Below, piece after piece: positions 6,668-22,646 of a DNA stretch of 37,675 nucleotides. A program made the position numbers and the translations under genes. The notes under the pieces are model-generated. The model searched no databases, was not told where the DNA came from, and worked only from the letters and a program-made list of their open reading frames with translations. The stretch comes from a virus, in IMG/VR virus record IMGVR_UViG_3300025820_000004, positions 1 through 37,675 of that record. One strand, given 5' to 3'. Numbering within the stretch: the stretch's first letter is position 1; each line of letters opens with the position of its first letter.

Positions 6668-6815
6668 AGATACGGTAATATATTGCCGTCATTAATTTAC
6701 TTAATAATCTCAATAACTTACAAGAAAAAAGAGACGAAAATTTAACATAATATGGCAATTTTTAAAAGTATTTTCCCGAGTTTGTCGGCAATAGCTACGG
6801 CAAAAAAGGACTATT
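6668..6815. repeat. Regulatory module, copy 1 of 2
   Basis: This block and 7325-7470 share a set of words in the same order: an AATATAT core flanked by CCGT/ACGG arms, then CCGTCAT.AATTTA, CAATA.CTTACA, and finally TTTCCCGAGTT followed by CGGCAAT and CTACGGCAAAAA. In copy 1 the first element is a near-perfect 18-base inverted repeat. Between the words the sequences differ, so the words look selected, as binding sites would be. There is no gene here. Confidence 0.6.
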
Positions 6816-7008: not shown

Positions 7009-7324
7009 AGGGATTAAATAATTAATAAGTAATAAATAATTAATAAATTGAAAAATAAACTCACCAATGAAAATTAATAAAAATTCTGTTGATAGTAAAA
7101 AAGAATAGCTTGTTTAAAGTCTCAAAAAAAATTAAATTTACCAAATGGATAACTAATAAAATAATCCTCTTTGAAAATTGTTAATAAAAGCCAATAATTG
7201 TTAACACTGTTTTGAAAGAAGGGACTTGGTAAAAAGTGGTTTTTTTGTTTTGTGAATAGTAGCATATTGCGAAGAGCAAGAGGGGGTAAAAGCAGGAATA
7301 AAGCAGGAATAAATCACCAAAAAT

Positions 7325-7470
7325 CCCTATGGCAATATATTTCCGTCATCAATTTATCCAAATTTTTCAATAGCTTACAGAGTTTTTAACAGAGTTTTCA
7401 ACAATTTTTAAGAGAAAATAGGTTATACTTTCCCGAGTTCGACGGCAATCCCTACGGCAAAAATAGGCAT
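7325..7470. repeat. Regulatory module, copy 2 of 2
   Basis: Second copy of the module described at 6668-6815, containing ATGGCAATATATTTCCGTC, then TTTCCCGAGTT and CGGCAATCCCTACGGCAAAA. The terminal GC-containing part is the best conserved. The duplication brackets the GTTAAC iterons. Confidence 0.55.
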
Positions 7471-8086: not shown

Positions 8087-8403
8087 AAAGGATACTAAAG
8101 AATACTATTTGGTAATATCTTTGATGAAATCTTCCAAGCAGCAGGATGGCTCCTTCTGCTTGGAGATTTCAAGAATGTAAAATCTCTTTACTTCTGTTCT
8201 CGGTAGAAGATTTCTGGAAGAGAGAAATTTCCTCAGCTTGGATGGCAATACTGGCAGCACTTCGTAAACGTCTGCCAGGTACCTTTTCCTGTACCTTAGC
8301 AGACGATTCTTAAAAAACAAATAATCATTACCCACACAAAGGTCGTAGCTTTCATCTGCTACGACCCTTATCCCTTGTAGGAGAGAGTCATCAACTTCGA
8401 CTC
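8085..8403 (-). other. Inverted repeats inside cassette 1 gene
   Basis: Arms read on the plus strand: 8126-8141 with 8156-8170 (15 pairs, one bulged base); 8269-8275 with 8299-8305 (7 bp) enclosing 8277-8282 with 8291-8296 (6 bp); 8341-8349 with 8358-8366 (9 bp perfect, 8-base loop); 8385-8389 with 8399-8403 (5 bp). A weaker 5-bp pair (8085-8089 with 8108-8112) encloses the stop codon. All would form stems in the mRNA. Confidence 0.85.
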
Positions 8404-8443
8404 CCTCCCATCTTTCGAAGGTTAATTTTTTTAGAATTTCCAT
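8105..8443 (-). CDS. Cassette 1: small island protein, N-terminal-domain type
   Basis: A 112-residue protein of unknown function. Its start (ERWEGVEVDDSLLQGIRV, then DYLFFKNRLLRYRKRYLADVYEVLP and LRKFLSS) aligns with the N-terminal halves of the cassette 4 and 5 proteins (WEGVEV...QGVRF...LFFVRHELLHAYRY...VKVLNS), so it appears to be a single-domain member of that family. A Cys pair (SCCLED) is near the C-terminus. It has its own promoter, 5' hairpin, GGAGG site and terminator. The coding DNA holds several long inverted repeats (described separately). Neighbouring the ring nuclease cassette, it is a candidate anti-defence protein by association only. Confidence 0.75.
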   Translation of the reverse strand: MEILKKLTFERWEGVEVDDSLLQGIRVVADESYDLCVGNDYLFFKNRLLRYRKRYLADVYEVLPVLPSKLRKFLSSRNLLPRTEVKRFYILEISKQKEPSCCLEDFIKDITK

Positions 8444-8471
8444 ATCTTTTTACCTCCACTTTTTCATTCAA

Positions 8472-8523
8472 CCTGCCAATGGCAGGCATAATATATCATA
8501 CAATATATATATTCTTTTGTCAA
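8472..8523 (-). promoter_or_regulatory. Cassette 1 promoter and 5'-terminal hairpin
   Basis: TTGACA (8518-8523), 17-base spacer, TATGAT (8495-8500), then within about 8 bases the hairpin CCTGCCATTGGCAGG (8472-8486; 6-bp stem, ATT loop). The predicted start of transcription is at the hairpin's 5' edge. A GGAGG site follows. Confidence 0.9.
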
Positions 8524-8690
8524 TACTTTTCTATATTTTTACATCTACTTTTTATGCTATATCTCATTGATTTTTCAAGATTATTTAAATATTTTATGCT
8601 TATATAAAAAAATAAAATAAACAATTTTCAAATCCATTTTTTGTCAGCAGCCAAAAAAACAACAAAAAAAACAAAAAAAACACCAAGCAA
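8524..8690. other. Conserved AT-rich upstream block, cassette 1
   Basis: Upstream of each cassette promoter lies a related A/T-rich block with AAGATTATTTAAATATTT-like words, followed by A-rich tracts. No gene. It may act as an UP element or bend; that is inference from conservation between cassettes. Confidence 0.5.
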
Positions 8691-8755
8691 TAACAGACAC
8701 CAACAGACATAACTAAGCAGGCAATAACAGACATAATCAGACAAAAGCAGACATA
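8691..8755. repeat. AACAGACAT repeats (ATGTCCG-type) between cassettes 1 and 2
   Basis: Five imperfect copies of (A/G)(A/G)C(A/G)GACA(T/C), relatives of the AACGGACAT word found in the other inter-cassette gaps. They lie just past the cassette 2 terminator and upstream of the cassette 1 promoter region. Confidence 0.6.
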
Positions 8756-8781
8756 ACTACCGAAAAAAAGACAAAAAAAAA

Positions 8782-8802
8782 GGCACGGCAAAAAGCCGTG
8801 CC
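8782..8802 (-). terminator. Terminator of cassette 2
   Basis: Perfect 8-bp stem GGCACGGC / GCCGTGCC with a 5-base loop, followed on the minus strand by a long T run. Confidence 0.9.
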
Positions 8803-8807
8803 TTTCA

Positions 8808-9124
8808 GAGGGTGCTCCTCTCGTTTAAAGAGGAACACTCTCTTTTTTAATCTTCACTCCCTTCACTATTTCGTGAAAAGAATAGAGAGGTGTCCCCTTC
8901 CACTCACCGTAAAGGAGGAACACCCTCCTAATTCTCTTATGAGGAGCTTCCTGAACAAACTCCTCATAAGCCTCTTGTATTTTTTCATCGCAGGGAAGTG
9001 GGAGTAACTTTCTTAGAAGCGAGGGAGAAAACGCCCTCATTTCAAAAAAAGTCTCTCCCACTTCCAGGGGTCTTTCACTAAAAAACAAAAGACCCCCTCT
9101 CTGATAGAGGTTGTAAAAACCTCT
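8808..9124 (-). other. Inverted repeats inside cassette 2 gene
   Basis: Plus-strand arms: 8808-8821 with 8829-8842 (13 pairs, one G-U, one internal mismatch; encloses the stop codon at 8825); 8913-8918 with 8924-8929 (6 bp); 8936-8946 with 8960-8970 (11 bp perfect); 8994-9004 with 9055-9065 (11 bp perfect) enclosing 9021-9025 with 9034-9038 (5 bp); 9067-9075 with 9088-9096 (9 bp perfect); 9106-9112 with 9118-9124 (7 bp), which competes with 9096-9100 with 9106-9110 (5 bp). Confidence 0.9.
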
Positions 9125-9202
9125 ACCTTTTAAATAGAAATCCCAGGATAAGGGAGCGTGTATTCCTACCCCCATCCACTTCCGAACCAGTAAGTTTCTC
9201 AT
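8825..9202 (-). CDS. Cassette 2: small island protein, N-terminal-domain type
   Basis: A 125-residue protein of unknown function. The order WMGVGIHAP, then NLYQRGGLLFFSERPLEVGE, FSPSLLRKLLPL and RVFLLYGEWKGTPLY matches WEKVRVF, SLYQYGGHLLVFSKQ, YSPELVRILNS and GILFFYPQDS in the cassette 4 protein, so it is a member of the same family without the C-terminal domain. Promoter, 5' hairpin, GGAGG and terminator are its own. The coding DNA is among the most hairpin-dense of the island and visibly richer in G+C than the late genes. Anti-defence role is inferred from the neighbouring ring nuclease. Confidence 0.75.
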   Translation of the reverse strand: MRNLLVRKWMGVGIHAPLSWDFYLKGRGFYNLYQRGGLLFFSERPLEVGETFFEMRAFSPSLLRKLLPLPCDEKIQEAYEEFVQEAPHKRIRRVFLLYGEWKGTPLYSFHEIVKGVKIKKESVPL

Positions 9203-9228
9203 TCTTTTTACCTCCTTTCTTTATTCAG

Positions 9229-9283
9229 CCTGCCAATGGCAGGTTTCTATATACATACTATCATTTATATGCTCTTTTGTCAA
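9229..9283 (-). promoter_or_regulatory. Cassette 2 promoter and 5' hairpin
   Basis: TTGACA (9278-9283), 17-base spacer, TAGTAT (9255-9260), then CCTGCCATTGGCAGG (9229-9243) about 11 bases later and a GGAGG site before the ATG. Confidence 0.88.
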
Positions 9284-9559
9284 TACTTTTTTATATTTTT
9301 ACATCTACTTTTTATGCTATATCTTATTGATTTTCCGAAACTATTTAAATATTTTATGTTAGCATAAAAAAATTCAATAAAAAAACAATTACCTATTGAA
9401 TTTTCAGAACTATTTAAAATTTTTATACTTGTATAAAAAAAATTAAATCTAACCAAATAAAGCATTTTTTTTCTACTGAAAAAACAAACATCAAGACGGT
9501 AACAGACATTAGCGGACATACCTAAGCGGACATGACTAACCGAAAAAAGGACAAAAAAA
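9284..9559. other. Inter-cassette region 2/3
   Basis: AT-rich block with two related ATTGA(A/T)TTT...ATTTAAA-type segments (near 9330 and 9390), one more than in the other gaps, then the ATGTCCG-type repeats and the cassette 3 terminator. An open frame crossing it (9280-9564) is low-complexity and has no ribosome site. I see no gene. Confidence 0.5.
9495..9534. repeat. GCGGACAT repeats between cassettes 2 and 3
   Basis: Three copies of the word (AACAGACAT, AGCGGACAT, AGCGGACAT) spaced 13-14 bases apart, next to the cassette 3 terminator. Confidence 0.65.
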
Positions 9560-9580
9560 GGCACGGCAAAGAGCCGTGCC
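9560..9580 (-). terminator. Terminator of cassette 3 (ring nuclease gene)
   Basis: Perfect 8-bp stem GGCACGGC / GCCGTGCC with a 5-base loop, then a T run on the minus strand. A second, 12-bp hairpin enclosing the stop codon sits directly before it. Confidence 0.9.
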
Positions 9581-9584
9581 CATC

Positions 9585-9918
9585 AGGGTGAGGATACTAC
9601 CAAAGGGGGGATACCCTCACTCTCAAAATATCCTCACCCTCAAAAAGCAGTAAGGAAGAGCCTCCAACTCTTCCTTACTGTAAACTTTCCCTTCTGGGGG
9701 ACGAGCCCCCAGAAGCTGGAAGAGGTAGACACAATCTCCCTCCTTCAGTTTTAATGTCCTTCGGCAGACATCGATTGGTCTGCCTAAAATTTGGGACAGC
9801 AGCATTGCTGTCCCCTCATGCCCAACTGCACTTTCGCAGTCAGGCACTTCCTCTGCCTGAACGGGGCAAAACTCTACAATTGCCCCGGTCCTTTCTACTC
9901 CCGCGATCATCGCGGGGG
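9585..9918 (-). other. Nine consecutive inverted repeats covering the ring nuclease gene
   Basis: Plus-strand arms: 9585-9596/9629-9640 (12 bp perfect, around the stop codon); 9648-9660/9668-9680 (13 bp perfect, 7-base loop); 9691-9700/9706-9715 (10 bp, 5-base loop); 9716-9725/9739-9748 (9 of 10); 9763-9769/9778-9784 (7 bp); 9793-9801/9806-9814 (9 bp, 4-base loop); 9825-9829/9836-9840 (5 bp); 9840-9846/9854-9860 (7 bp, sharing one base with the last); 9862-9869/9880-9887 (8 bp); 9900-9906/9910-9916 (7 bp, 3-base loop). They follow one another with almost no gap. Confidence 0.92.
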
Positions 9919-9952
9919 TAAAAGCATTGACTAAATATTTCATTTTTTTCAC
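9623..9952 (-). CDS. acrIII-1: Cassette 3: AcrIII-1 viral ring nuclease (DUF1874)
   Basis: A 109-residue protein that matches the DUF1874/AcrIII-1 family (SIRV1 gp29, STIV B116, YddF): start MKYLVNAFTPAMI, the SAVGHEGTAMLLSQILG helix, LKEGDCVYLFQL and RPPEGKVYSKEEL. Established knowledge: these enzymes degrade cyclic tetra-adenylate, the second messenger of type III CRISPR, and so disarm Csm6/Csx1-type effectors. The residues expected for catalysis and binding are present: His 45 in GHEGT, Arg 84 and Glu 87 in ARPPEGK. Length is typical. It has its own promoter, 5' hairpin and terminator. G+C is clearly above the rest of the window and the gene is built of nine consecutive inverted repeats. 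Confidence 0.92.
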   Translation of the reverse strand: MKKMKYLVNAFTPAMIAGVERTGAIVEFCPVQAEEVPDCESAVGHEGTAMLLSQILGRPIDVCRRTLKLKEGDCVYLFQLLGARPPEGKVYSKEELEALPYCFLRVRIF

Positions 9953-9971
9953 CTCCTTTCTTTTTTTTTAA

Positions 9972-10027
9972 CCTGCCAATGGCAGGCTATCTAATTACAT
10001 ATTATCATTTATATTTCTTTTTGTCAA
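9972..10027 (-). promoter_or_regulatory. Cassette 3 promoter and 5' hairpin
   Basis: TTGACA (10022-10027), 17-base spacer, TAATAT (9999-10004), CCTGCCATTGGCAGG (9972-9986; flanks add a G-U and an A-U pair), then GGAGG before the ATG. Confidence 0.9.
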
Positions 10028-10160
10028 TACTTTTTTTATACTCTTTTTTATATATCTCATTGAAAAATAAGGATTATTTAAATATTTTATATTTATATAA
10101 AAAATTTAAATAATTTTTTCTGAAATTGATTTTCTATGCATCAATAAGTTGCAACATAAG

Positions 10161-10183
10161 CATCAACGGACATCAACGGACAT
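10161..10183. repeat. CATCAACGGA tandem repeat between cassettes 3 and 4
   Basis: Two perfect 10-base units followed by CAT, giving AACGGACAT at 10165 and 10175, exactly one helical turn apart. Same word as in the other gaps. Confidence 0.7.
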
Positions 10184-10199
10184 TGTCAGAGAAAAAAAA

Positions 10200-10221
10200 G
10201 GCATGGCTTTTTTGCCATGCC
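10200..10221 (-). terminator. Terminator of cassette 4
   Basis: 8-bp perfect stem GGCATGGC / GCCATGCC with a 6-base loop and a downstream T run. Compared with cassettes 2, 3 and 5 both arms carry a matching change (CATGG for CACGG), so the stem is kept by paired changes. Confidence 0.9.
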
Positions 10222-10227
10222 CTTTTA

Positions 10228-10770
10228 GAGTAAGGGGTTAATCCCCTTACTCATAAGCAAGCATCTCTTTCGTGACTATCTCGCACGGGCAGTCGCAAAT
10301 AAACAGTTCAAAACTTTCTCCTAGCCAGCTTTTTGGATATGGAATTTGTGCTATTCTGTCAATCACTGCTGGGCGACAAACTGGCCCCAAGAATTCTATT
10401 TTTACCAATATCTTGCCACTCCAATTTTTCCACCGTACGTCGCGAAGGTGATAAAGAAAATGAGTTGCCATGGAATCTTGTGGATAAAAGAAAAGAATCC
10501 CCTCAGCTTCCTCAAGTGCTGAGGGGTCTTTTTTAAAAAATCTTTTTACCAGAGCCCGCCACTCCGACATATGTGGCCGCCACTCTGGCATCTTCCTCAT
10601 CTTTTTATTGGAATTTAAGATTCTAACCAGTTCTGGCGAATACTTTTCAATATCCGCCACGTACTCCATATAGTTTTTGATTTGCTTACTAAAGACCAAT
10701 AGATGCCCTCCATATTGATACAGCGAGTATTTGTTGTTTTCCTCCACCCACTTTCCTTGAGTAGGAAAGT
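10228..10770 (-). other. Inverted repeats inside cassette 4 gene
   Basis: Plus-strand arms: 10228-10237/10243-10252 (10 bp perfect, 5-base loop, encloses the stop codon at 10247); 10499-10507/10518-10526 (9 bp perfect); 10750-10757/10763-10770 (8 bp perfect, 5-base loop). Fewer than in cassettes 1-3 but with perfect arms. Confidence 0.85.
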
Positions 10771-10810
10771 TAAAGACTCTAACCTTTTCCCATTTTCTTA
10801 TCTTTTTCAT
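10247..10810 (-). CDS. Cassette 4: two-domain island protein
   Basis: A 187-residue protein, clear paralogue of cassette 5 along its whole length. N-terminal part: WEKVRVFNFPTQGKW, YSLYQYGGHLLVFSKQ, YSPELVRILNS. C-terminal part: EGILFFYPQDS, HFLYHLRDVRWKNWSGKI, IAQIPYPKSWLGESFELFICDCPCEIV. The closing FICDxPCE(I/L)V motif, with conserved Cys, is shared with cassette 5 and, in altered form, with both halves of cassette 6. No known family recognised. Own promoter, 5' hairpin, AGGAGGTAGG ribosome site and terminator. It may be a host-takeover or anti-defence protein, inferred from location. Confidence 0.8.
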   Translation of the reverse strand: MKKIRKWEKVRVFNFPTQGKWVEENNKYSLYQYGGHLLVFSKQIKNYMEYVADIEKYSPELVRILNSNKKMRKMPEWRPHMSEWRALVKRFFKKDPSALEEAEGILFFYPQDSMATHFLYHLRDVRWKNWSGKILVKIEFLGPVCRPAVIDRIAQIPYPKSWLGESFELFICDCPCEIVTKEMLAYE

Positions 10811-10836
10811 TTTTTCCTACCTCCTTTTTTATTTTA

Positions 10837-10892
10837 CCTGCCAATGGCAGGCTATCTATATACATCATACTATATATATATCCTTTTGTCAA
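10837..10892 (-). promoter_or_regulatory. Cassette 4 promoter and 5' hairpin
   Basis: TTGACA (10887-10892), 17-base spacer, TATGAT (10864-10869), CCTGCCATTGGCAGG (10837-10851) and a GGAGG site. Confidence 0.9.
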
Positions 10893-10990
10893 TACTCTTT
10901 TTTATACTCTTTTTTATATATCCTATTGAAAAATAAGGATTATTTAAATAATTTATATTTGTATAAAAAAATAAAATAATTTTTTCTGAA

Positions 10991-11030
10991 GCAGACATCA
11001 ACGGACATAACCAGGCAGAACGGACATGAC
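10991..11030. repeat. AACGGACAT repeats between cassettes 4 and 5
   Basis: AGCAGACATCAACGGACATA and a further AACGGACAT, three copies of the inter-cassette word in 40 bases, next to the cassette 5 terminator. Confidence 0.65.
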
Positions 11031-11054
11031 CAACTGGAAAATGGACAAAAAAAA

Positions 11055-11075
11055 GGCACGGCAAAAAGCCGTGCC
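11055..11075 (-). terminator. Terminator of cassette 5
   Basis: Perfect 8-bp stem GGCACGGC / GCCGTGCC with a 5-base loop and a long T run on the minus strand. Confidence 0.9.
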
Positions 11076-11080
11076 CTCCT

Positions 11081-11521
11081 CTCGGCAAAGTTTATTCCTC
11101 TTTGTCGAGGTAATCTTCAATCACAACCAGCTCGCATGGCTGGTCACAAATGAAGATTTTGAATTCTTCTCCTATCCCTGCCTTCGGGAGAGGAGTACGA
11201 GCAATTTCTTCCATCATGTTTGGGCACTTGCCTGTCGGTTTTAATACCTCATTTTCAATCCAAATCCGTCCTTCATGGTCCCTCCAGCGAACAGACCTCG
11301 TCTGGTAAAGAAAAAATGTCTTTTTTTGCGACGGTTCAAAAACAAAAAGGCCTTTCACTTCTTCTGGTGAAAGATCTGACTTCGTAAAGAAATCCTTTAC
11401 AATCGTCCGTAACTCTGACAATAAATGTGGTAATTTTTCATCAGAGTTCAAAACTTTCACAATTCCTGCGGGAATTTCTTTTATATTGACTGTATACCGA
11501 TATGCATGTAATAATTCATGC
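11081..11521 (-). other. Inverted repeats inside cassette 5 gene
   Basis: Plus-strand arms: 11081-11090/11100-11109 (10 pairs, one G-U, encloses the stop codon at 11092); 11112-11119/11151-11158 (8 bp) enclosing 11126-11131/11139-11144 (6 bp); 11169-11173/11191-11195 (5 bp) with an inner 4-bp stem; 11292-11296/11300-11304 (5 bp, 3-base loop); 11352-11358/11367-11373 (7 bp); 11384-11389/11395-11400 (6 bp); 11411-11418/11441-11448 (8 bp); 11461-11466/11471-11476 (6 bp); 11504-11508/11517-11521 (5 bp). Confidence 0.85.
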
Positions 11522-11661
11522 CTGACAAAAAAAAGCGTATTCCCGTATTGATACAAACCAAACAACTTTTCCTCTTCTTCAAACCGCACCCCCTGCCGAG
11601 GAAAATTAACAACTTCTACCCCCTCCCATTCCCTTATTGCTACACTTTTCTTTTTTTTCAT
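11092..11661 (-). CDS. Cassette 5: two-domain island protein
   Basis: A 189-residue paralogue of cassette 4. Shared landmarks in order: REWEGVEVVNFPRQGVRF, GLYQYGNTLFFVRHEL, GIVKVLNSDEKLP, LSPEEVKGLFVFEPSQ, FFLYQTRSVRWRDHEGRI, IARTPLPKAGIGEEFKIFICDQPCELVVI. The Lys-rich start (MKKKKSVAIREW) follows a GGAGG site. Predicted soluble, alpha/beta, two domains of about 90 residues. Function unknown. Several hairpins in its coding DNA lie where cassette 4 also has hairpins but with different sequence. Confidence 0.8.
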   Translation of the reverse strand: MKKKKSVAIREWEGVEVVNFPRQGVRFEEEEKLFGLYQYGNTLFFVRHELLHAYRYTVNIKEIPAGIVKVLNSDEKLPHLLSELRTIVKDFFTKSDLSPEEVKGLFVFEPSQKKTFFLYQTRSVRWRDHEGRIWIENEVLKPTGKCPNMMEEIARTPLPKAGIGEEFKIFICDQPCELVVIEDYLDKEE

Positions 11662-11686
11662 TTTTTTATACCTCCTTTTTTTTATT

Positions 11687-11742
11687 TAGCCCATCAATGA
11701 CAGGCTATACTATATCATACTATATATATTCTTTTTTGTCAA
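11687..11742 (-). promoter_or_regulatory. Cassette 5 promoter and variant 5' hairpin
   Basis: TTGACA (11737-11742), 17-base spacer, TATGAT (11714-11719). The hairpin TAGCCTGTCATTGATGGGCT(A) at 11687-11707 differs from the canonical 15-mer but still pairs over 9 bp as RNA, using two G-U pairs, with the same ATT loop. Confidence 0.88.
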
Positions 11743-11856
11743 TACCTTTTTTATATTTTTTTATTTATATATCTCATTGAAAAATAAGAATTATTTAAAT
11801 AATTTATATTTGTATAAAAAAACAGATAATTTTTCTGAAATTGGTATTTTTCTTCT

Positions 11857-11875
11857 CAGACATCAATTGATATTT
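11857..11875. repeat. Degenerate ATGTCCG-type word between cassettes 5 and 6
   Basis: One recognisable CAGACATCAA followed by TTGATAT. The weakest of the inter-cassette repeat clusters. Confidence 0.4.
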
Positions 11876-11898
11876 CCATAGAGAAAAAACAAAAAAAA

Positions 11899-11920
11899 GG
11901 ACATGGCAAAATCCATGCCC
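11899..11920 (-). terminator. Terminator of cassette 6
   Basis: Minus-strand stem GGGCATGG / CCATGTCC (one G-U pair) with a 6-base loop and a T run. Diverged in sequence from the other five but same design. Confidence 0.8.
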
Positions 11921-11943
11921 TAAAAATTTTTATTCTTCCTTTT

Positions 11944-12810
11944 TTACTCTTCCACCATTTCTTCCACTTTCTCTGTCTCCTCTATCTTGCATTGTGAACC
12001 CGCTACATACATCTTCAAGCACTCATGTGCACTTTCTGATTTTGCTATCAAGGTTATTTTAGCTTCAGTCCGAGCTGGAACAAGAATTTCTTCCCTTTTA
12101 TAAAATTTATCTCCAAACTTATCTTTCTCCTCCCATTGTAACTCCTGTGTTTGATACAGATAACAGCAAGAGCCACTTTGGGAGGAAACTGGAACGAATA
12201 TTAAATTTTTGTTAGAGGCCCGCCATATTTCAAACGGACCTTCAATGTACAGTTGCCCGTCGTATATCATTGTTTCTAACTCCTTGTTTATTTGGATATA
12301 CCACTCGTCATATCCTACCCCCCACTTGTATATTTTCCTGTCGGGGAGATCTACGAATTTTTTTACCTTCATCCCTGTCTCTTGTATCACCTCCTCTATT
12401 ACCTCTACTTTTTCTACCCTGCAAGGTTTATTTACCACCAGAACTTTAGCCTCTGGTACTTCTATCAGTTTTTTCACCTCCACTTCAAAAGGAACTTTCG
12501 GGACAACAACCTCTCTTACATACTGGTTCAGCTCGCACCATGTGCGCTGCTGGTACATGCACCATTGGCAGGAAGTGGAAGAAGGAAAGAAAAATAAAAA
12601 GTTATCTTGTTTTATTAGGTCAAACACTTCTTTGACTCTTAAGGTCTCTTCGTCTTCATTATAAAGAAAATCAAGTTCCTTATCTACGCAGAAATAGAAC
12701 TCCTCCCCTAAGATGCCCCAACGGAAGACATACCAGTTGGGGAAAAGCTCTTCTGGCTGTGGTCTAAAAACCCTCAGCTCTTTCTCCTGTTTTACTCCTT
12801 TGATTATCAT
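11944..12810 (-). CDS. Cassette 6: internally duplicated island protein
   Basis: A 288-residue protein of unknown function made of two copies of one domain. Copy 1 (about residues 27-139) runs YVFRWGILGEEFYFCVDKEL, FLFFFPSS, MYQQRTW, VVNKPCRVEKVEV. Copy 2 (about 160-285) runs IYKWGVGYDEWYIQINKEL, LIFVPVSSQ, YLYQTQELQW, YVAGSQCKIEETEKV. The FxFxPS...xLYQT...PC pattern is shared with the C-terminal domain of cassettes 4 and 5. Cys is frequent (CQWC at 81-84, CC at 215-216). It has its own promoter, hairpin and terminator, but its coding DNA lacks the long inverted repeats of cassettes 1-5, so it acts as an internal comparison. Confidence 0.78.
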   Translation of the reverse strand: MIIKGVKQEKELRVFRPQPEELFPNWYVFRWGILGEEFYFCVDKELDFLYNEDEETLRVKEVFDLIKQDNFLFFFPSSTSCQWCMYQQRTWCELNQYVREVVVPKVPFEVEVKKLIEVPEAKVLVVNKPCRVEKVEVIEEVIQETGMKVKKFVDLPDRKIYKWGVGYDEWYIQINKELETMIYDGQLYIEGPFEIWRASNKNLIFVPVSSQSGSCCYLYQTQELQWEEKDKFGDKFYKREEILVPARTEAKITLIAKSESAHECLKMYVAGSQCKIEETEKVEEMVEE

Positions 12811-12834: not shown

Positions 12835-12888
12835 TACCCACCAATGACGGGTATAATATATCATACTATATATATTTTTCCTTGTCAA
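12835..12888 (-). promoter_or_regulatory. Cassette 6 promoter and variant 5' hairpin
   Basis: TTGACA (12883-12888), 17-base spacer, TATGAT (12860-12865). Hairpin TACCCGTCATTGGTGGGTA (12835-12853) pairs over 8 bp as RNA with two G-U pairs and the same ATT loop, though its DNA palindrome is broken. Confidence 0.88.
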
Positions 12889-13338: not shown

Positions 13339-13361
13339 AACGGACATTGCCAAACGGACAT
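13339..13361. repeat. Pair of AACGGACAT words
   Basis: Two perfect copies starting at 13339 and 13353, 14 bases apart, between the tiny ORF and the next gene. The same word as in the cassette gaps. Confidence 0.65.
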
Positions 13362-13675: not shown

Positions 13676-13704
13676 TCAACACATCCCCCTAATATATATA
13701 TATG

Positions 13705-13948
13705 TGTTTACCACTCCAAAAAATGAAAAAATTGGTAAACAATATATAAAATTGGTAAACACTAAGTAAACACCAAGTAAACAAGTTGGTAAACATATGT
13801 ATATATATAAAGTATTGAAAATATTATATTTATATATATGGTAAACATTTTTATATATAGGGAAATATATCGCATGGTAGGTGTTTACCACTTTGTTTAC
13901 CAATCTGTTTACCATCCTGTTTACCATGTGTTTGTCTGGTGTTTACCA
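13705..13948. repeat. GGTAAACA iteron array with AT-rich core: candidate replication origin
   Basis: Copies of TTGGTAAACA or AAGTAAACA lie at 13732, 13752, 13764, 13775, 13786 and 13839; the reverse complement TGTTTACCA lies at 13705, 13882, 13894, 13906, 13918 and 13940. Spacing within runs is 11-12 bases, so sites share a helix face. The two runs face each other across a core (13796-13880) of almost pure A/T. This is the layout of an iteron-type origin with an unwinding element, directly beside the primase-helicase gene. Confidence 0.75.
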
Positions 13949-21492: not shown

Positions 21493-22611
21493 CTACCACG
21501 CCCTTACGGACGGAGCTTTAAGAGGAATATGAGAACTAATAAAATTCAACATATTCATCTTTTCGGGACGGTTTACGATCGCCCCCCCCAACTGGGCAAT
21601 ATTTATCGCCGCATTGACATCAGAGTCAATGGAATTGCCGCAGTTTGGACAACTAAAGTGCTTGCCATTTCTATTACCAATGCACTTGCATACATTGCAA
21701 ATTTTGCTTGTATAACGAGGGTCAACCACAACAAGAGGGACACCAGCAAGTTTAGCCTTATATTCAAGAAAAGAACGAAGTTGAGAAAAAGCCCAAGAGT
21801 GGTGTTTTCGTCTTTGAGCTTTTCTAACTCTGGTTCTTTCTCTAATGTAGGTCAAGTCTTCAATAGCAATTCCTTTATTTTCAGATTTAGCTTTTTCTAC
21901 AATTTGCTTACTGATAGTGTGATTGGTAATAGTGGCAAATCTCTGTTCTCTGCCTTTAAGCCGTTTCAGAAGTTTTTTGCTTCCTTTTGTGCCTTTGCGT
22001 TGAACAGAGCGACGCACTTTAAAATATTTATCTCTAACCTTATTCAAGTTTTGAGAACTAAAACTCGTTCCATCAGAGAGCGTTGCAGTATCTGTAATTC
22101 CAAAATCCACCCCGATAAATTCTTCAACATCTTTTATATCTTCTTCTGGAACTTCAATGGCTTGGAAAAGATAAAACTTCCCCTTCTTGTAAACAAGGTC
22201 TGCCTCACCTTTAATATAAGGAAGGTATTTAGGATTATGGCAAACAAAAGGGATTTTCAACCTTCCATCCACAGACCAGATAGAGACAGAATTATCTTTT
22301 TTGTAAGAAAGAATGCGAGCATCATAAGTTATTGCGCCAAGAGGTTTAAATTTTCTTTGAAATTTTTTACCAGATTTGTAAGCGTTTGCAACCTTAGAAA
22401 TACAACGAATAAGAACCTGAGCAGAAAGATTAGAGGTGGCTTTAATTTTGTGATAAACAAGATGGTGAAGTTTAAATTGATTGAAAACTTTGTTATCCCA
22501 TGCAACCTTAGAAATTTCATTACAAATACGGTTGCACTCTTTAATAGTTTCAAGAAGATAATTCGCTTGTTCATCAGAAGGCAAAAGTTTTATTTGCAAT
22601 GTAAGTTTCAT
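21493..22611 (-). CDS. tnpB: TnpB RNA-guided nuclease
   Basis: Compact RuvC nuclease related to Cas12; known TnpB proteins use an RNA from the element's right end to cut DNA at old donor sites. All catalytic motifs look intact (numbering from an upstream in-frame Met, six residues before the start chosen here): GVDFGITD with Asp 175, GIAIEDL with Glu 258, DSDVNAA with Asp 337, and the zinc ribbon CNVC...CPNC (311, 314, 327, 330). Start is set at ATG 22611 (MKLTLQIKLLPS), because the upstream ATG lies within the promoter. About 372 residues, normal for the family. The gene likely is active or only recently inactive. It has no relation to phage operons except its position. Confidence 0.93.
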   Translation of the reverse strand: MKLTLQIKLLPSDEQANYLLETIKECNRICNEISKVAWDNKVFNQFKLHHLVYHKIKATSNLSAQVLIRCISKVANAYKSGKKFQRKFKPLGAITYDARILSYKKDNSVSIWSVDGRLKIPFVCHNPKYLPYIKGEADLVYKKGKFYLFQAIEVPEEDIKDVEEFIGVDFGITDTATLSDGTSFSSQNLNKVRDKYFKVRRSVQRKGTKGSKKLLKRLKGREQRFATITNHTISKQIVEKAKSENKGIAIEDLTYIRERTRVRKAQRRKHHSWAFSQLRSFLEYKAKLAGVPLVVVDPRYTSKICNVCKCIGNRNGKHFSCPNCGNSIDSDVNAAINIAQLGGAIVNRPEKMNMLNFISSHIPLKAPSVRAW

Positions 22612-22617
22612 AATGTT

Positions 22618-22646
22618 ATTATACATCATATATTTGAAAATGTCAA
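22618..22646 (-). promoter_or_regulatory. Consensus promoter giving a nearly leaderless tnpB transcript
   Basis: TTGACA (22641-22646), 17-base spacer, TATAAT (22618-22623): both hexamers are perfect. The expected start of transcription falls at or within a few bases of the ATG at 22611, and no ribosome site is visible. Confidence 0.8.

Follow-up and report, generated by a model that had tools for sequence, protein, structure and literature searches.

Coding sequences packed with stem-loops in a six-cassette array of a tailed phage

Six neighbouring coding sequences (CDSs) of a phage genome are packed with stable local stem-loops, which are made by codon choice and leave the protein unchanged. 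They lie at 8105-12810 of the window, i.e. the whole stretch of 37,675 nt that was analysed (positions 1 to 37,675 of IMG/VR record IMGVR_UViG_3300025820_000004), within what is predicted from the sequence to be a tailed-phage array in which six one-gene cassettes are transcribed independently of one another. The best explanation, to which we assign a probability of roughly 45 %, is that these are structured early anti-defence cassettes, in which selection acts on the overall structuredness of the sense RNA. The initial annotation had pointed instead to one hairpin, supposedly kept at the same codons of two paralogues whilst both of its arms changed; this specific claim is not upheld, although the region is nevertheless unusual.

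Layout of the array and its shared leader

In each cassette (c1 to c6; Table 1) a putative sigma70-like promoter and a 5′-leader hairpin are followed by a ribosome-binding site and a short CDS, with a terminator-like hairpin behind it. The same promoter layout precedes all six in an alignment of upstream sequences (A6), and the downstream sequences and their folds reveal a GC-rich hairpin and a run of T residues behind every cassette. The products of c1, c2, c4, c5 and, more weakly, c6 are mutual relatives; in a search amongst the six proteins, BLASTP returns c1 against c5 at E = 9e-9, and c6 against c5 at about 5e-6 when BLOSUM45 is used. No known family was matched by any of these five, a profile search of the PDB with alignment A1 returned weak and implausible matches only, and an AlphaFold model of c5, derived from a two-row alignment, was discarded at a pLDDT of 39. 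Rfam and tRNA searches produced no matches, and a search for relatives of the virus via the portal or the shared leader motif found none that were useful.

As judged by Pfam, the PDB and alignment, c3 is a member of the AcrIII-1 ring nuclease family (DUF1874, PF08960). It matches PF08960 with an E-value of 1.1e-13 and 51.6 bits, above the curated cut-off of 26, and within the PDB it matches AFV3-109 (E = 1.5e-8) as well as the STIV B116 structures. The S-x-x-G-H sequence is kept, with H45 forming an invariant column in alignment A3, and an active-site histidine has been reported for the AcrIII-1 viral ring nucleases (PMC7293037). c3 is predicted to be a CRISPR-blocking enzyme.

Archaeal viruses possess small, mostly single early genes behind one promoter motif, for which an anti-defence role has been proposed (PMC11065993). 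By analogy with these gene sets, and from the presence of c3, the array would constitute an early counter-defence region. The two arrangements share small orphan genes, diverged proteins and near-identical strong promoter regions, and single genes behind one common promoter motif are likewise what alignment A6 displays. The array described here differs in its bacterial sigma70-like promoters, leader hairpin, terminators and hairpin-packed CDSs, and in harbouring AcrIII-1 within it, whereas the AcrIII-1 gene of SIRV is without the early motif.

Paired change among the cassettes does appear in the 5′-leader hairpin, in a form that is suggestive rather than decisive. Across the six cassettes 97.6 % of cells pair, compared with 19-50 % when the hairpin is slid, and in c5 and c6 two pairs are altered on both sides, accompanied by G-U intermediates; with six related rows, a row-shuffle control does not reject chance for this count. 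In all six cassettes the hairpin lies close to where the transcript is predicted to start, and in c1 to c4, where it is a DNA palindrome, it could also be an operator. A further motif, TGTCYG, occurs in 34 copies on the minus strand and 8 on the plus strand. It clusters between each terminator and the next promoter (minus-strand sites at 8699-8753, 9508-9532, 10172-10182, 10997-11026, 11862, 13046 and 13346-13360), often at a spacing of 10 bp that would suit a protein docked on a single face of the helix.

Table 1. Predicted and observed features of the cassette array
Feature	Coordinates	Strand	Remarks
c1 CDS	8105..8443	-	112 aa; paralogue of c4/c5; hairpin-packed
c1 leader hairpin	8472..8486	-	CCTGCC-ATT-GGCAGG
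c2 CDS	8825..9202	-	125 aa; paralogue of c4; hairpin-packed
c2 leader hairpin	9229..9243	-	
c3 CDS	9623..9952	-	109 aa; DUF1874/STIV_B116-like, assigned to AcrIII-1 viral ring nuclease family
c3 perfect stems (seven)	9916-9900, 9887-9862, 9860-9840, 9814-9793, 9784-9763, 9715-9691, 9680-9648	-	
c3 leader hairpin	9972..9986	-	
c4 terminator-like hairpin and T run	10200..10221	-	
c4 CDS	10247..10810	-	187 aa; orphan; holds the 9-bp stem of the initial annotation (10499..10526)
c4 second stem, at FNFPTQG	10750..10770	-	8 bp, loop 5; without c5 counterpart
c4 leader hairpin	10837..10851	-	
c4 sigma70-like promoter	10864..10892	-	TTGACA-17-TATGAT; from upstream sequences and alignment
c5 CDS	11092..11661	-	189 aa; orphan, c4 paralogue; holds the 7-bp stem (11352..11373)
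c5 leader hairpin	11690..11704	-	CCTGTC-ATT-GATGGG; helix kept by U-G, G-U and U-A replacements
c6 CDS	11944..12810	-	288 aa; weakly related to c4/c5
c6 leader hairpin	12835..12849	-	CCCGTC-ATT-GGTGGG

Elsewhere in the window, a TnpB-family gene at 21493-22629 has counterparts in Candidatus Lithacetigena glycinireducens (76 % identity) and Candidatus Hakubella thermalkaliphila (68 %, partial), matches that provide a hint of host or habitat. Many GGTAAACA-like repeats, seen by eye at 13690-13930 upstream of or near the prim-pol gene, are possibly the iterons of an origin. Two similar non-coding stretches (GCCGTCAT..., CCCGAGTT.GACGGCAAT), also noted by eye, are situated at 6670-6810 and 7320-7470, in an AT-rich region without cassettes.

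Stem-loops within the coding sequences

When compared with synonymous codon shuffles, the cassettes display folding-energy z values of -7.3, -8.0, -7.6, -2.7, -2.8 and -3.7 for c1 to c6, respectively, against a range of -1.4 to +1.2 for nine other genes of the virus in the same test. With dinucleotides also preserved, the corresponding values are -4.7, -5.4, -5.6, -1.3, -3.4 and -2.5, and those of 21 other genes extend from -1.6 to +2.2. Five of the six cassettes therefore lie below -2 by the stricter test, with c4 alone not significant, making it the weakest case. Most of the effect survives folding with 65 °C parameters, which gives z values of -3.2 to -7.4 for c1 to c4 and c6, and of -1.9 for c5.

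The excess is equally apparent from perfect stems, which total 61 bp in c3 (4.0 expected), 17 bp in c2 (two stems of 8 and 9 bp; 2.0 expected) and 17 bp in c4 (two stems; 3.7 expected), totals that none of 200 shuffles reach for any of the three. A scan of all genes shows such stems outside c4 and c5 as well. Local folds consist of chains of stem-loops running from leader to terminator, and c1 and c3 carry hairpins along their whole length. Accessible 8-nt windows, by comparison with shuffles, are not reduced as a fraction in any cassette.

Extreme structuredness of CDSs has been described by Gebert et al. 2019 (PMC6544989), and there, as in the genome-scale ordered RNA structure (GORS) of RNA viruses, codon arrangement likewise generates far more structure than synonymous shuffles do, and overall structuredness is seen rather than one conserved fold. 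By a GORS-like measure, namely energy beyond that of synonymous and dinucleotide-preserving shuffles, the cassettes possess the same property, with c4 alone being marginal. In the known cases the property belongs to a few per cent of ORFs or to RNA genomes, whereas here six contiguous cassettes of a dsDNA phage are involved, in association with an AcrIII-1 gene, the remaining tested genes of the virus not departing from background. A search of the open-access literature found no account of extreme CDS structure in phage anti-defence genes, an absence that is weak evidence of novelty.

It is against this background that the two hairpins of the initial annotation are to be viewed. Both are present on the minus strand: CCCCTCAGC/GCTGAGGGG at 10499-10507/10518-10526 in c4 (9 bp, loop of 10) and CTTTCAC/GTGAAAG at 11352-11358/11367-11373 in c5 (7 bp, loop of 8). 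They had been taken to cover aligned codons, P-S-A in c4 and L-S-P in c5, and hence to represent paired change at homologous sites. A MAFFT protein alignment of these paralogues (43 % identical), however, pairs KDPSALEEAEG of c4 with KSDLSPEEVKG of c5 free of gaps, so that P-S-A falls one codon away from L-S-P. The stem arms are offset by one codon and two nucleotides and, when mapped onto the codon alignment, have zero column pairs in common, leaving no homologous paired change. Transferring the c4 pairs to c5 yields AC,GG,AG,TA,CA,TA,TG,TT,CG, and the reverse transfer TG,CG,AA,GG,CT,AC,CG, both mostly not Watson-Crick; by arithmetic on the coordinates, a gap in the loop would still give a register error of 1 nt. 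A second aligned site (FNFPTQG/VNFPRQG), also said to carry a stem in both genes, does so in c4, as a perfect 8-bp stem (ACTTTCCT/AGGAAAGT), but c5 has no stem there of at least 4 bp.

The perfect-stem content of c5 amounts to 7 bp, a value reached by 121 of 200 synonymous shuffles, and its stem is at chance level. With c4 held fixed, 33 of 1500 c5 shuffles place a stem at the same location in both genes, which is weak support given that the site was chosen after the fact. Searches for c4/c5 homologues by peptide patterns, alignment patterns and tblastn (viral_contigs, genome_contigs and phages) returned none. That a single regulatory hairpin has been kept at homologous codons of c4 and c5 through compensatory change is thus very improbable: the two stems are real and their regions overlap, but for these two genes the register and the lack of a common column pair contradict it, and the chance-level c5 stem and the missing second site weigh against it further. 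The broader contention, that RNA structure is selected here, loses its argument from homologous hairpins yet gains support from the excess of all six cassette CDSs over synonymous shuffles, an excess that the other tested genes of the virus do not share. The two stems are unrelated members of a region-wide population and illustrate how a pair picked by eye can mimic covariation when the true signal spans the whole region. As individual stems differ between paralogues and turn over freely, we infer that selection is on overall structuredness, and that this, not any particular stem, is what is kept.

Structured CDSs around AcrIII-1 in other viruses

DUF1874 genes of other viruses were run through the same shuffle test. 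A z value below -3.2 is displayed by 10 of 23 non-archaeal representatives; amongst neighbouring ORFs the count is 18 of 212 (Fisher 5e-5), and amongst archaeal DUF1874 CDSs 0 of 11. The contrast between archaeal and other members is descriptive, as members were assigned manually, by virus name and similarity, once the z values had been seen. The hairpin-packed CDS of c3 is in this respect unlike the archaeal members tested. In a fresh set the same threshold is passed by 5 of 37 DUF1874 genes and 21 of 306 others, which is not significant (p 0.18), whilst the means differ (-1.77 for the 37 against -0.83 for the 306; p 0.003), as do the proportions below -5 (4/37 against 3/306; p 0.003). The link between structure and AcrIII-1 is thus confined to the extreme tail.

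The DUF1874 genes of phiFN37 and THSA-485A are each surrounded by a cluster containing many of the most structured ORFs. Very strongly structured neighbours of AcrIII-1 in phages other than the present one comprise L049:95-589 (z -9.3), L049:960-1508 (-7.2), L047:2092-2430 (-6.6) and L068:1849-2319 (-9.2); of the first three, two are without assigned function and one is RNase H/DnaQ-type exonuclease-like. Because the structure-rich neighbours are mostly without any family, the data suggest that excess structure follows a class of genes and not the DUF1874 family alone. Amongst 191 ORFs of the classical phages lambda, JBD30, A006, 2972 and part of T4, no z value falls below -5 and two fall below -4, and T7, likewise a classical phage, has no ORF below -4. 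Within the Hydrogenobaculum-type DUF1874 genes (six close relatives), 5 of 88 predicted pairs are double-changed and the covariation term of +0.78 lends no support; individual stems are therefore not conserved in any clear way. Cellular DUF1874 genes sought for comparison were too few.

A possible role is protection, in that dense structure might shield early counter-defence mRNAs from type III crRNA complexes or from cA4-activated single-strand RNases. The stem-richest gene, c3, is itself assigned to a ring nuclease family that counters type III systems, structured CDSs are found repeatedly near AcrIII-1 in bacterial phages, acrIF1 (z -0.3) and acrIIA1 (z -1.6), both directed against DNA-targeting systems, are unstructured, and an analogous RNAi argument has been proposed for structured viral ORFs (PMC6544989). 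Set against this are the accessible 8-nt windows, which are no fewer than in shuffles for any cassette, and an association with DUF1874 that replicates in the extreme tail only. The archaeal viruses count against it too, as their hosts commonly carry type III systems and those tested are without such structure. We consider shielding of this kind to be quite unlikely.

Level of selection and possible function

Whether the stems matter as RNA or as DNA was approached by comparing G-U with A-C at the ends of stems, using 23 genes that a strand-symmetric Watson-Crick stem criterion had selected. The ratio is 50:19 in these structured genes, against 9.1:8.5 in shuffles; unstructured control genes also give 35:19, and part of the G-U excess is thus background. 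Pooled sense-minus-antisense folding energy is below that of shuffles (p 0.018), although the lean varies by cassette, with c1 and c2 favouring the sense strand, c3 the opposite one, and c4 to c6 near neutral. Selection at the level of the sense RNA is tentatively favoured by the pooled tests, the cassettes on their own being mixed. With regard to codon phase, 9 of 15 cassette stems pair third with second positions, the class that is rarest in other structured genes.

A competing account places the origin of the perfect inverted repeats at the DNA level, by template switching at quasi-palindromes or by selection for DNA cruciforms or hairpins, with the proteins tolerating the outcome. The largely perfect Watson-Crick stems of c3, whose antisense strand folds at least as well, are in keeping with this, and arm copying might be tolerated by several of the cassette proteins, which are orphans. 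It fits poorly with the surplus of G-U over A-C at stem ends across the wider set, with stem arms in c3 that encode family-conserved residues (T-A after G-H; P-E-G), and with a c3 excess that was measured with the protein held fixed. Such an origin is unlikely, if the most credible of the alternatives to selection on sense-RNA structuredness.

For that preferred reading, the leading mechanism is stabilisation of the transcript, which taken by itself is tentative and held with less confidence than the reading as a whole. Chains of stable stems, together with the leader hairpin and terminator, would stall exonucleolytic decay; the short monocistronic cassette mRNAs would in turn live longer, and enough protein might be made early, whilst host defence is active. 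As the accessibility of 8-nt windows is unchanged, simple masking is not supported, and since it is the stability of discrete stems that differs, barriers to decay fit better than a cloak. We therefore infer a ranking with mRNA stabilisation first, and with DNA-level causes and a shield against RNA-targeting immunity behind it.

Less probable again than shielding is a tuning of translation or expression, in which CDS structure would delay ribosomes or keep Rho from loading on these short transcripts. Selection on structure within CDSs has been reported for some genes (PMC6544989), but the ribosome-binding sites of the cassettes are strong, and the hairpins of c1 and c3 are distributed over the entire gene.

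A wider proposition is that some bacterial phages place early counter-defence genes, AcrIII-1 included, in hairpin-saturated mRNAs that survive or evade RNA-degrading immunity. This is doubtful, ranking between a DNA-level origin and shielding in probability; if true, counter-defence would be carried by codon choice and not by protein. Excess synonymous structure is, moreover, a possible sequence-only signal by which orphan genes near AcrIII-1 may be picked out. Hairpin-packed CDSs that are confined to a likely anti-defence array would indicate that phage genes carry information in a second layer.
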